Below are positions 14,161 through 22,392 of a stretch of 64,000 nucleotides of DNA, in pieces (within the stretch, counting starts at the first letter, position 1; the number at the start of each line of letters is the position of its first letter). The position numbers and the translations under genes are program-made. The notes under the pieces are model-generated. The model ran no database searches, was not told the DNA's origin, and saw nothing but the letters and a program-made list of their open reading frames with translations. The stretch is from Collinsella aerofaciens (GTDB taxonomy: Bacteria > Actinomycetota > Coriobacteriia > Coriobacteriales > Coriobacteriaceae), in the NCBI RefSeq assembly GCF_015557435.1, contig NZ_JADNOH010000099.1, positions 1 to 64,000 on the forward strand. Reading direction: 5' to 3'.

Positions 14161-14188
14161 CGAAACCGATTTCGTAAACCGATTTCGG
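14161..14188. promoter_or_regulatory. Tandem LacI-type operators at kdgK
   Basis: CGAAACCGATTTCG (14161-14174) is followed at once by a second copy of its core, TAAACCGATTTCGG (14175-14188). The 14-mer recurs identically at 20045-20058 and in reverse complement at 19919-19932. The divergent LacI gene is the probable binder. Confidence 0.7.
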
Positions 14189-17573: not shown

Positions 17574-18812
17574 TCAAGAGGCAGTTTGCGGGAGCGCTCC
17601 CTTCAATTCGCACAGGAGCTCGTAATACCTCCTCTCCAGTTTCGTCGACCGCCGTTTCCCCCGCTCCAAGTGCCCGAGTGTGGCTGCGGACAGGCCGAGC
17701 TCCGCGGCGGCCTGCTTCTGAGTCACCCGCATCGCCTTGCGCATCTTCGCGAGCTCGGGCCCTTCCGGCGCGGCGCCGTCGGGGTTCGGGTCCATGAGCA
17801 CGCGGTACACCTCCCGCGCTATGTAGCGCTTCAGGCAGCGGACCGCCTCCCGCCGGGACTTCCCCTCGGAGGTCCGCCTCGCCACGTACCTCCTCGTCCT
17901 CTCGTCGTACGCCATGCGCTTGATCGCGATCTCGTAGAGCGCCCAGTTCGCCTGCCGGTTGCCGCCGCGGTTGAGCCTGTGCCGTTCCGTCTTCCCGCTC
18001 GACGCGGGGATCGGGGAGACGCCGCACAGCATCGAGAACGCCGCCTCGCCCTTCAGCCTGCCGGGGTTGTCGCCGGCGGCCACGACCAGGGCGGCGGCGG
18101 TCGTCGTGCCGCAGCCCTCGACGCCGAGCAGCGCGGGCGCGTTCGCCTCCAGCAGCGCGCGGATGCGCTCGTCGAGGAACTCGACCTGGCTGCGGGCCTC
18201 CTTCCAGACCGTCGCGACGGACCGCAGCGAGGCCAGCACGCTCTCCTCGAGCGCGCTGGCCGCCTTCCTCCCGCGCGCGAGCAGCGGCATGAGGTCCTTC
18301 GGCCGCTCGCGGCCCCTGAACCGCTCCCTCAGGGCGCTCGGGGCCGTCGTGAGCATCGACTTCGCGCAGGCCACGCAGGACGTGGACGTCGCGACGGCCA
18401 GCCTGCGCGCGACGTAGAGCTGGCGCACCGCCTCGACCCAGCCGTCCTGCGACTTCGGCACGGAGCAGCCCCTCCCGGACGCCGCCTTGCGCGCCGCGCG
18501 CTCGGCGTCCAGCGGGTCGCTCTTCCCCTCGCCGGGCCTCACCTTGTCCCTCTTGGGCCTGAGCACCTCGACCACGTTGTACCCGAGCTCCACGAGCCTC
18601 CTCGTCAGCCCGGCCCCGTACGACGCCGTGCCCTCGACGCCGACGACCACGCAGCTCCCCGGGTCGCCTATCGCCTCCGCCAGCCTGTCGTAGCCCTCGG
18701 GGTCGGCCCCGAAGCTCCCGCTCCGGATCTTCCTCCCGAGGCCGTCGAGCAGGCACAGGACATGCACGTCCTTGTGCGTGTCGACGCCCGCGATGACCGT
18801 TTCGCCTTCCAT
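17574..18812 (-). CDS. IS110-family transposase with extra C-terminal HTH domain
   Basis: 412 residues. The N-terminal RuvC-like DEDD domain shows Asp in IAGVDTHKD, Glu in VGVEGTASYG and Asp-Asp in KSDPLDAERAA. The C-terminal Tnp20 domain includes GVEGCGTTTAA and the Ser-containing SSGKTERHRLNRGGNRQAN. After this comes an additional XRE-type helix-turn-helix of about 55 residues (TQKQAAAELGLSAATLGHLE), which ordinary IS110 transposases lack. The enzyme recombines DNA guided by a bridge RNA. ATG at 18812 follows GGGGAG by seven bases. It looks intact. Confidence 0.9.
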   Translation of the reverse strand: MEGETVIAGVDTHKDVHVLCLLDGLGRKIRSGSFGADPEGYDRLAEAIGDPGSCVVVGVEGTASYGAGLTRRLVELGYNVVEVLRPKRDKVRPGEGKSDPLDAERAARKAASGRGCSVPKSQDGWVEAVRQLYVARRLAVATSTSCVACAKSMLTTAPSALRERFRGRERPKDLMPLLARGRKAASALEESVLASLRSVATVWKEARSQVEFLDERIRALLEANAPALLGVEGCGTTTAAALVVAAGDNPGRLKGEAAFSMLCGVSPIPASSGKTERHRLNRGGNRQANWALYEIAIKRMAYDERTRRYVARRTSEGKSRREAVRCLKRYIAREVYRVLMDPNPDGAAPEGPELAKMRKAMRVTQKQAAAELGLSAATLGHLERGKRRSTKLERRYYELLCELKGALPQTAS

Positions 18813-19071
18813 TTTCGCTCCCCTCGGTCTGCCGCCTGCTCCGCGCCCGGGTCTCCCAGACATTGCACTGACGGGAGCGCTACAATCCAATTGGCTTGTC
18901 CGATTGTCCGCGCTCATGCTCCTATTAGGTCATGGCAGGACTCCGGGACGCGGATGCCGGGGCGAGACAGGTCGGATTTGAGGACGGCCGAAGAGGCGTC
19001 AGCAGGTCAGTGGGTCATCGTCCCGGCATTCAGCATCAGGGTAGCGCTGCGACGCGGAAATCGCGCGCCGT

Positions 19072-19159
19072 TGCCGCGCCCCGCAGTGCCCGCTTCCCCC
19101 GAGAACAATTATCAGTGCCGCGCCCCGCAGTGCCCGCTTCCCCCGAGAACAATTATCAG
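19072..19159. repeat. 44-bp perfect tandem duplication
   Basis: The 44-bp unit starting TGCCGCGCCCCGCAGTGCCC occurs twice head to tail (19072-19115 and 19116-19159) with no mismatch. It lies at the distal edge of the non-coding region upstream of the transposase. Confidence 0.85.
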
Positions 19160-19292
19160 TGCAGGTAGACGGCTTGCCGATTTTCAAAAAAGCCGGCTAT
19201 GGTTGACCCCTACGGCTTAAACGTAGTAGATAGCCCATTTTCGTGGCACAGCACTATTCCATCCCAAATTGGCGCCCCGGGCCAACTATAAT

Positions 19293-20300: not shown

Positions 20301-20981
20301 ATGCGACCGCTCATCATCATGAATGGCGAGAAGATCGACTGGTGCCATACCGTCATCAGAATGCTGATGTATTTAGCAGGTGTCGCGACGCTCGCCCTCG
20401 GCATGAGCATCCAGACCGCATCGGGCCTGGGCGTTGCCGCACTTACCTGTTTTGCCACGACGCTGTCCATGCTCACCGGCAAGACACTCGGCTTTTGGAT
20501 CACCGCGACCTACGTCGCATACATCGCCGCACAGGCAGCCATCTTGCGCCGCGAGTTCCAGCCGCGCATTTTGCTCGAGCTCTTTTTCTCAACACTGATC
20601 GGTGGCTTTACCGACTTCTTTATGGACGTCAACCCTCTGCACCCCACCGCGTTGCCGGCACAGGTTGCGACCATGCTGCTCTCGCTTGCCATCACTGCGT
20701 CTGGTGTAAGCCTCGTCGTCAACATGGGAGTCGTTCCCAACGCGCCCGACGGTCTGGTGCAGGTCATTGCCGAAAAACTCAAACGCCGCTTTGGCGATGT
20801 GAAGGTCGTATTCGATTGCTCGCATGTCGCCGCCTCGCTCGCACTGTCGCTGGTTTTTATGCACAACCTGGGCGGCTTTGGCGTCACGACCGCCATCTCG
20901 GCATTATTCCTGGGCCATGTCATCAACATCGCCAACAAGCTGTTCGCCCAGCGCTTTATCCGCGCGGCATTCGGAAAATAG
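20301..20981 (+). CDS. YczE/YitT-like integral membrane protein
   Basis: 226 residues with about five or six hydrophobic segments. The first is LMYLAGVATLALGMSIQ, followed by the family-like SGLGVAALTCFATTLS. A cytoplasmic loop rich in Lys and Arg (EKLKRRFGDVKVVFD) separates the halves. Related proteins (YczE, YitT, DUF6198) have no firmly known function; a transport role is often suspected. The ATG at 20301 follows AAAGGA by 13 bases. It has a LacI operator and leader elements A, B and C in tandem, exactly the signals that serve kdgK and eda. It may therefore handle a compound of the KDG route. Confidence 0.75.
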   Translation: MRPLIIMNGEKIDWCHTVIRMLMYLAGVATLALGMSIQTASGLGVAALTCFATTLSMLTGKTLGFWITATYVAYIAAQAAILRREFQPRILLELFFSTLIGGFTDFFMDVNPLHPTALPAQVATMLLSLAITASGVSLVVNMGVVPNAPDGLVQVIAEKLKRRFGDVKVVFDCSHVAASLALSLVFMHNLGGFGVTTAISALFLGHVINIANKLFAQRFIRAAFGK

Positions 20982-21010
20982 CACCACCGCAAGAACCCGC
21001 GAGCAGCGCT

Positions 21011-21080
21011 ATACGTTGCTATATCTCACTATACGTTGCTATATCTTGCTATACTTTGCTATAACTTGCTATATCTTGAG
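21011..21080. repeat. Seven 10-bp helically phased direct repeats
   Basis: Seven consecutive 10-bp units of consensus ATATCTTGCT run up to the ribosome site of the next gene: ATACGTTGCT, ATATCTCACT, ATACGTTGCT, ATATCTTGCT, ATACTTTGCT, ATAACTTGCT, ATATCTTGAG. The period equals one turn of DNA, so a protein could bind them all on one face. TATACT and TATAAC cores inside may act as -10 elements. Confidence 0.75.
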
Positions 21081-21094
21081 CAAAGGTGGCTCAC

Positions 21095-22186
21095 ATGCAA
21101 ACAAACCCTTTTAAGCCCACGGCAGGCAAAACACCTCCCACGATTATCGGCCGCGAAGATGTACTCGAGGAATTCAATGAAGGCCTCGTCAACGGGCCTG
21201 GTGCCCCGGGGCGCCTTATGCGCATAGCCGGCGTCCGCGGAACGGGCAAGACAGTCCTCCTTGACGAGTGCTCACGTTTGGCGCAAAGCCATGGTTGGAC
21301 GGTCATAAGAGAGGTCGCAACTGAGGGGCTTTGCCAGCGCATTCTCGAACAGCTGCAGCCCAAATTCCAGGCCAAACACGCCAGATTTGAGCCCACCGTA
21401 GCTGGCATATCCATCGGCAGCATAGACATTGAGCGAATCGGTCCATCGCTGCGCGACGCCATGAGGCAGGCTATATCCAAGGATGGAAATGGCCTGCTCA
21501 TCACCCTCGACGAGGTTCAAGACGCAGAGCTCGAAGAGGTCCGAACACTCTCCATTGCGATTCAGCAGGTTATCGGCGAAGACCTTGATATCGCCTTTGT
21601 TTTTGCGGGGCTGCCTTCGATGATCGAAAGTGTCATCAACGGAAAGACACTTACGTTTTTGCGCCGCGCCCTCCCCTTTGACCTGAAGGCTGTGGCAGTA
21701 ACCGAAGTGTCGTACTCCCTCGAGGAAACCATTGAAGCGTCTGGCATGGAGCTACAGCCAGGTATTGCCGGGCAGCTTGCCGAGGCAACGCAGGGCTATC
21801 CTTTCATGATCCAACTCGTTGGATATTACGCATGGCAGCTGGCAAGACGCGCCCATACAACTGTTATTGGAGAGGAAGAGGCAAGGCGAGGCATCGCAAC
21901 AGCGCGCGAACGCTTCTGCGCCATGGTGATTGAGCCCGCGCTGCAGCGCATTCCACCCACGTGCATCGCTTATCTGCTGAGCATGGCATCTTTGGGGCAG
22001 ACGAGCTCGACCAGCATGGTTGCCGATGACTTAAACAAGACGCCTCAGCAGGTGAGCTCCGTCCGTAGCCGACTGCTCAGAGAGTCGATTATCGAGGCAC
22101 CTTCGTACGGCAAGATATCGTTTGCCATCCCCTACATGCGCGACTACCTCAACGAACACAAAGCCGAACTGGAAGTTGAACTGTAG
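21095..22186 (+). CDS. AAA/STAND-like ATPase with winged-helix C-terminus
   Basis: 363 residues. The ATPase core has Walker A (GVRGTGKTVLL) near residue 47 and Walker B (LLITLDEVQD) near 133. A sensor/lid region with FVFAGLPSM follows, and the C-terminal 80 residues look like a winged helix (TSSTSMVADDLNKTPQQVSSVRSRL in two pieces). This resembles archaeal-type AAA ATPases and Orc/Cdc6-like stand-alone ATPases found near mobile DNA; function is unknown. The ATG at 21095 follows CAAAGG; a GTG nine bases earlier is possible. It is monocistronic between the phased repeats and a 20-bp perfect terminator. Confidence 0.7.
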   Translation: MQTNPFKPTAGKTPPTIIGREDVLEEFNEGLVNGPGAPGRLMRIAGVRGTGKTVLLDECSRLAQSHGWTVIREVATEGLCQRILEQLQPKFQAKHARFEPTVAGISIGSIDIERIGPSLRDAMRQAISKDGNGLLITLDEVQDAELEEVRTLSIAIQQVIGEDLDIAFVFAGLPSMIESVINGKTLTFLRRALPFDLKAVAVTEVSYSLEETIEASGMELQPGIAGQLAEATQGYPFMIQLVGYYAWQLARRAHTTVIGEEEARRGIATARERFCAMVIEPALQRIPPTCIAYLLSMASLGQTSSTSMVADDLNKTPQQVSSVRSRLLRESIIEAPSYGKISFAIPYMRDYLNEHKAELEVEL

Positions 22187-22204
22187 AAGCGGCAACCGCC
22201 CTGC

Positions 22205-22259
22205 AAGACGAAAACCGTTTGCGTACGGTTTTTAACCAGACGCAAACGGTTTTCGTCTT
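22205..22259 (+). terminator. Terminator of the ATPase gene
   Basis: AAGACGAAAACCGTTTGCGT (22205-22224) pairs perfectly over 20 bp with 22240-22259. A related AGACGAAAAG motif recurs at 22351. The following T content is modest. Confidence 0.65.
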
Positions 22260-22356
22260 ATTTGCGTACGGAAATGAGACGCAAATTTCGATTTCGTCTG
22301 ATTATTCGCCAGACGTAACACACTTTCGTCCGGCAATACGTCCGCAATCCAGACGA

Positions 22357-22392
22357 AAAGAGCCCCGAGCTCGTATGAACTCGGGGCTCTTT
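22357..22392. terminator. Bidirectional terminator beside the dehydratase remnant
   Basis: AAAGAGCCCCGAG pairs with CTCGGGGCTCTTT (13 bp) with A/T tracts on both sides. Confidence 0.75.

Follow-up and report, generated by a model that had tools for sequence, protein, structure and literature searches.

The array of 10-bp direct repeats that precedes an AAA ATPase gene in Collinsella is probably the cognate operator of that ATPase, read by its C-terminal winged helix and occupied by a head-to-tail oligomer that sets expression of its own gene, most likely through repression. From sequence comparison, we strongly infer that the ATPase physically binds its own array, mainly because the sequence of the repeat unit tracks the recognition helix. 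In the 64,000-nucleotide stretch of DNA analyzed (the window), which comes from a genome whose nearest records are Collinsella aerofaciens, seven 10-bp units with the consensus GCTATAYSTT occupy positions 21008 to 21077 of the forward strand (unit starts 21008, 21018, 21028, 21038, 21048, 21058, and 21068). The units are direct, non-palindromic, and arranged head-to-tail in tandem in the order GCTATACGTT GCTATATCTC ACTATACGTT GCTATATCTT GCTATACTTT GCTATAACTT GCTATATCTT; this confirms the seven repeats of the original prediction, which had placed them 3 bp out of register at 21011 to 21080. An 18-bp double-unit pattern has six matches in the window against 0.04 expected, the phased-repeat score of the array is z = 13.4, and the only match elsewhere in the 2.37-Mb genome is one site with two mismatches. 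On its 5′ side, 26 bp lie between the array and the stop codon of a gene for a DUF6198 membrane protein (20301–20981, forward strand), and 17 bp separate its 3′ end from the ATG of the 363-residue ATPase (P0001; 21095–22186, forward strand). A Shine-Dalgarno-like AAAGGTGG (21082–21089, forward strand), read from the sequence, lies directly 3′ of the array and before the ATG, and an alternative in-frame start, GTG, is found at 21086. The 26-bp gap leaves scant promoter space outside the array, unless transcription enters from the DUF6198 gene.

Several other features of the window were recorded. In an AT-rich block 3′ of the ATPase gene (22200–22375), GACGAAAACCGTTTGCG/CGTACG-like arms recur in several inverted copies; ATPase orthologues are followed by similar sequence, and the block looks like a repeated intergenic element. 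An IS110-type transposase (PF01548, PF02371) with a C-terminal HTH_3 domain is encoded at 17574–18917 on the reverse strand, with a perfect 44-bp tandem duplication nearby (19072–19162). Operator-like AAACCGATTTCGT repeats are present at 14163–14187 and around 19925 and 20045, with sugar-acid catabolism genes in the vicinity.

The ATPase passed the Pfam cut-off for AAA_16 (AAA ATPase domain; 39.4 bits versus a curated 32.6) and missed that for ATPase_2 (PF01637, archaeal ATPases; 13.7 bits versus 33.2); despite the subthreshold PF01637 score, its predicted fold is closest to archaeal ATPases of the ATPase_2 type. Cdc6 and ORC models were absent among its 14 Pfam matches up to E = 1, and no PADLOC anti-phage defence family was matched up to the same E value. 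The Walker A motif GVRGTGKT (residues 46–53; 21230–21253, forward strand) contains G46, G49, G51, K52, and T53, all invariant in 56 homologues, as are D139 and E140 of the DE pair that ends the Walker B segment (residues 134–140; 21494–21514, forward strand), a strand in the structural model. In the AlphaFold2 model (pLDDT 91, from a 56-sequence alignment), an AAA-type core is combined with a helical lid and, at about residues 288 to 355, a C-terminal winged helix; the protein ends at residue 363, just past this domain, with neither sensor nor superstructure repeats beyond it in the model. The helix-turn-helix of the winged helix is modeled at residues 306 to 329 (22010–22081, forward strand), with residues 317 to 329 as the recognition helix. 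STAND NTPases are defined by an N-terminal hhGRExE-type motif together with a GxP motif, and the ATPase carries IIGRED at residues 17 to 22 (G19 invariant, R20 in at least 90% of homologues) and GYP at residues 234 to 236 (G234 invariant). With a dN/dS of about 0.10 between orthologues, the ATPase is under purifying selection. As modeled, the protein is a bare archaeal/STAND-type ATPase with a winged helix and resembles Orc1/Cdc6 and NLR cores closely.

Homologues were gathered from named genomes, 98 relatives, the phylum, plasmids and phages, the order, and the Actinomycetes. By eye, most close homologues have an array of their own just 5′ of the gene, each with a different unit spelling. Arrays were scored with a chained 7-mer statistic against dinucleotide shuffles, for which p ≤ 0.01 is the floor with 100 shuffles. 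In the first nonredundant set, 45 of 58 upstream regions reached p ≤ 0.01, and the same number reached z ≥ 4, as compared to 3 of 150 and 1 of 150, respectively, for control regions upstream of other genes at the same loci. A held-out Coriobacteriales set, fetched once the statistic had been fixed, gave 56 of 71. About a fifth of close homologues failed the test. By the original prediction, homologues without the repeats would have counted against it; within the clade this refutation fails, most close homologues having an array. On a tree of 213 members, arrays were found in 72% of a 165-member clade versus 4% of its 48-member sister (support 99), and the array/no-array labels required 34 changes versus 70 when shuffled. 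Outside Coriobacteriia, 7 of 29 sampled Actinomycetes members passed and 22 failed, several of them with two to four weaker units. Clear arrays were also found on Arthrobacter and Citricoccus plasmids and, beyond Actinomycetota, at a few loci only, namely a Bacillus plasmid (L182) and a Clostridia MAG (L027).

The homologous gene family is present in 143 of 245 good Coriobacteriales genomes, and homologues occur in 110 plasmid records. The genes are chromosomal, with several per genome, and 40 of the 98 relatives had no match at the threshold used, a distribution too patchy for an essential role. No conserved gene neighbors were found across 98 loci, the largest clusters having three members. 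A second type of orphan ATPase, DUF4143-like by eye, adjoins a few members of the family (L121/L132 and L119/L133). Distant homologues (L136, L173, L174, L298, and L302) are preceded by tandem repeats of longer period, either 13 bp (TTGGCATCCAGGG) or about 20 to 21 bp (TTGTGCGCGGGGC or TTGTGCGGCGG), which are perhaps related operators with another layout. When viral contigs were searched with the window array, the only matches were five near-identical contigs of one phage (L189–L193), in which an TTTGCTATAA array lies on the strand opposite to a gene start and no ATPase is encoded; this array was judged unrelated, whether it serves another purpose or arose by chance.

Averaged self-similarity of 58 upstream regions, with the lag unrestricted, peaked at 9 to 10, 18 to 20, 28 to 30, and 38 bp, corresponding to a family period of 9 to 10 bp with a mean of 9.5 bp. 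Individual arrays fell into 10.0-bp, 9.0-bp, and 9.5-bp classes, an assignment made from a chain restricted to steps of 9 to 11 bp and in agreement with the unrestricted lag profile; the array of the window belongs to the 10.0-bp class. The 9.5-bp class mostly consists of alternating steps of 9 and 10 bp, i.e., a 19-bp double unit, and among consecutive steps, 260 alternate and 146 repeat. Period class follows the tree (16 changes versus 35 when shuffled). The spacing had been described as exactly one helical turn, with cooperative binding on one DNA face. However, the 10.0 bp of the window and the 9.5-bp family mean both fall below the turn of about 10.5 bp, and many arrays have periods of 9.0 or 9.5 bp, which does not fit strict binding to a single face. 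Since the period is shorter than the turn of B-DNA, the sites lie near one face but not exactly on it, and either overtwisted DNA or a spiralling row of protein would accommodate the 9- to 10-bp spacing.

Unit sequence was compared with 352 twelve-residue segments of the protein, correcting for the rest of the protein, with units aligned by best shift and start codons picked by rule. In the first set, the eight highest partial correlations all came from segments within residues 307 to 325, the best of them at 308 to 323, where the helix-turn-helix has its second helix and its recognition helix. The held-out set put the segment at 315 to 326, in the recognition helix, in first place (r = 0.55, partial 0.45); pairs in such Mantel-type correlations are non-independent, a problem that the segment scan and the held-out set lessen but do not remove. 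At 50 to 60% overall identity, unit similarity was 0.78 between proteins with like helices versus 0.51 between those with unlike helices. The pairings of helix and unit, namely RYASK with AGGCGAA, RYAST or RYASS with AGGCAAA, NYASQ with TGCAAAA, NYASK with GGGAAAA, DYAQK with AGGAAAA, and WASK with GGTATAA, look like a recognition code.

Arrays also appear to be private to their genes. Paralogues in the same genome as the window ATPase carry GGTATAA and CTCAAAGA arrays. The GGTATAA array is confined, in this genome, to its own ATPase, and close matches to the CTCAARGA array are found at its own ATPase plus one isolated site; of the arrays tested in this manner, two were cleanly private and the third mostly so. 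Collinsella orthologues have between four and nine 10-bp units, all of them whole, and both the spacing to the ATG and the register are constant. In one orthologue (L018), codon 68 is a stop, and its four-unit array is among the shortest. A Collinsella genome with the DUF6198 gene and without the ATPase retains two degenerate units (L194, 2315–2340), as if the ATPase gene had been lost there.

These patterns bear on other explanations of the array. Neutral slippage, by which a chance microsatellite grows and shrinks without function, would fit the variation among orthologues by whole units. It is nonetheless barely credible, given that independent arrays with differing units occupy the same place in most of the 129 close homologues versus 2% of controls, that unit sequence tracks the recognition helix, and that many arrays alternate regularly between steps of 9 and 10 bp. 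Phased A-tracts or AT-rich repeats could in principle bend DNA or act as an UP element that raises transcription with no cognate protein; arrays are indeed AT-rich, and many units contain A-runs (AGGAAAAAA and TGCAAAA among them). However, the GCTATAYSTT unit of the window has no A-tract, bending requires 10.5-bp phasing rather than the observed periods of 9.0 to 9.5 bp, and the units track the helix-turn-helix, making this reading very unlikely. The array could alternatively be a row of RNA elements in the mRNA leader that controls translation, as the median distance of 24 bp to the start codon would allow if a promoter lies upstream. That the units covary with a helix that reads DNA, and that they repeat at close to one DNA turn, speaks instead for DNA, and the best −10-like site is inside the array in most cases, so that a role in RNA is likewise highly improbable.

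Two further alternatives involve protein binding. As a replication-origin or partition module, the array would load an Orc1/Cdc6-like initiator that starts replication or anchors the replicon. Archaeal initiators are often encoded beside their origin boxes, and both the fold, which is close to ORC2 and Cdc6, and the plasmid-borne homologues are compatible with such a module. Against it, the gene is chromosomal, present several times per genome, and missing from many close relatives; replication neighbors are not conserved; arrays are situated in promoter regions, where no unwinding element distinct from them was seen; and no clear GC skew inflection occurs at 21 kb in the 64-kb window, which is a weak test. 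The origin-like module put forward in the original prediction is consequently improbable, finding no support in skew, patchiness, or neighbors. Lastly, the array might be the target of another DNA-binding protein, such as a nucleoid protein or a separate regulator, with the ATPase merely the regulated gene. Actinobacterial proteins that bind 9- to 11-bp repeats head-to-tail do exist (BldC, PhoP, and SARP), but a separate binder leaves unexplained both the covariation with the ATPase's own recognition helix and the private units of each paralogue, and the ATPase has no conserved regulator gene next to it; we consider it unlikely.

Binding of the array by the adjacent ATPase is thus the reading that we favor. 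The original prediction had suggested an ordered array read by the ATPase itself, possibly in an autoregulated module; array recurrence and the covariation of unit and helix support the former, and autoregulation would be its simplest effect. One protomer would contact each 9- to 10-bp unit and read it with its C-terminal winged helix. Because the repeats are direct and non-palindromic and the reader is a winged helix, protomers would align head-to-tail, one per unit, aided by contacts between ATPase cores, and the core may add nucleotide-controlled contacts between neighbors, as in MalT and Orc-type proteins. The oligomer would then occupy the promoter of the gene or the DNA next to it. In 73 of 108 cases, the best promoter-like site and the array overlap, although AT-rich arrays match −10-like sequences by composition and the overlap is accordingly weak evidence. 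Together with the 26-bp upstream gap, this overlap makes autoregulation the simplest effect and repression its likeliest sign, a sign that we infer, the promoter and array data being alike for repression and activation. A unit and a matching recognition helix for each paralogue would allow several modules to coexist with little cross-talk.

A broader reading, offered tentatively, is that minimal NLR/Orc-type ATPases, reduced to a nucleotide-binding core and a winged helix, are widespread and form ATP-controlled, sequence-specific filaments on private arrays at their own genes, with a readable code that has given rise to many mutually orthogonal, self-addressed modules. If such filaments form, the modules could be molecular guards or systems of exclusion between mobile elements, which is a guess, and origin recognition would be linked to NLR-type switches. 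No description of the phenomenon was found in the literature on these arrays, archaeal ATPases, and origins within an open-access library, and a self-addressed family of DNA-binding ATPases looks to be unreported. If the operator reading is right, the array bound by each of hundreds of uncharacterized "ATP-binding proteins" would be predictable from sequence and testable by swapping a few residues, and the module would provide a small and clean example of an ATPase core of the STAND/Orc type acting directly on DNA, with a bearing on the kinship between NLR immune switches and replication initiators. A large family of orphan genes would likewise be marked out as self-regulated modules that may serve the host or mobile DNA.

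Among known structures, the closest folds to the model are the archaeal STAND-like proteins PAB2304 (2qen) and SSO1545 (2fna), with Z scores of 23.3 and 22.3 over about 303 residues at 14 to 16% identity. Like the Collinsella ATPase, both have about 350 residues and consist of an ATPase core with a C-terminal winged helix; neither a DNA target nor an upstream array is reported for them in the open-access literature searched. Archaeal Orc1/Cdc6 initiators bind DNA sequence specifically, and their genes stand beside their own binding sites. Those matched by the model (1w5t ORC2, 2qby, 2v1u, and 1fnn; Z 16.5–21.5) share the AAA+ core and C-terminal winged helix, and the ORC2 match (Z 21.5 over 332 residues) upholds, at the level of the model, the earlier description of an Orc/Cdc6-like ATPase ending in a winged helix. 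In contrast to Orc1/Cdc6, the Collinsella protein has no Cdc6/ORC Pfam match, has 9- to 10-bp direct repeats at a promoter rather than origin boxes, and is patchy and dispensable in bacteria; it is not filed with Orc1/Cdc6 because it has neither the family match nor origin evidence. NLR and apoptosome cores (Apaf-1/CED-4 and Rx1; Z 16–20 for the NLR/apoptosome matches) and STAND regulators likewise contain an NBD, a helical domain, and a winged helix. Among the STAND regulators, MalT and IniR act as transcription factors of the ATPase type (PMC4381067, PMC5760070), and the NB-ARC core of the plant NLR Rx1 binds and bends DNA (PMC4599002). As the Rx1 core is related to Orc1/Cdc6, a bare core that reads DNA is plausible. 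Unlike MalT, IniR, and the NLRs, the Collinsella ATPase has no sensor, arm, or separate output domain, and its winged helix itself appears to read DNA; lacking a sensor domain, it is not classed among full STAND proteins.

The proposed binding mode is reminiscent of Streptomyces BldC, a solved precedent in which winged helix-turn-helix proteins line up head-to-tail on 9-bp direct repeats in varying number (PMC5859096), which supports such binding by a winged helix. BldC differs in being a 68-residue MerR-like protein that has no ATPase and acts at many promoters rather than one private array, whereas the Collinsella protein combines an AAA ATPase with a winged helix of its own and falls outside the MerR-like BldC family. 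PhoP- and SARP-type regulators use few repeats per site, have target operons elsewhere, and are not known to have a private array per paralogue. They bind tandem direct repeats cooperatively, through 7-bp motifs with 4-bp spacers (PMC4832192, PMC5930380). The Collinsella ATPase is best placed as a probable cooperative regulator on direct repeats, built on the frame of a bare STAND/Orc-type ATPase.
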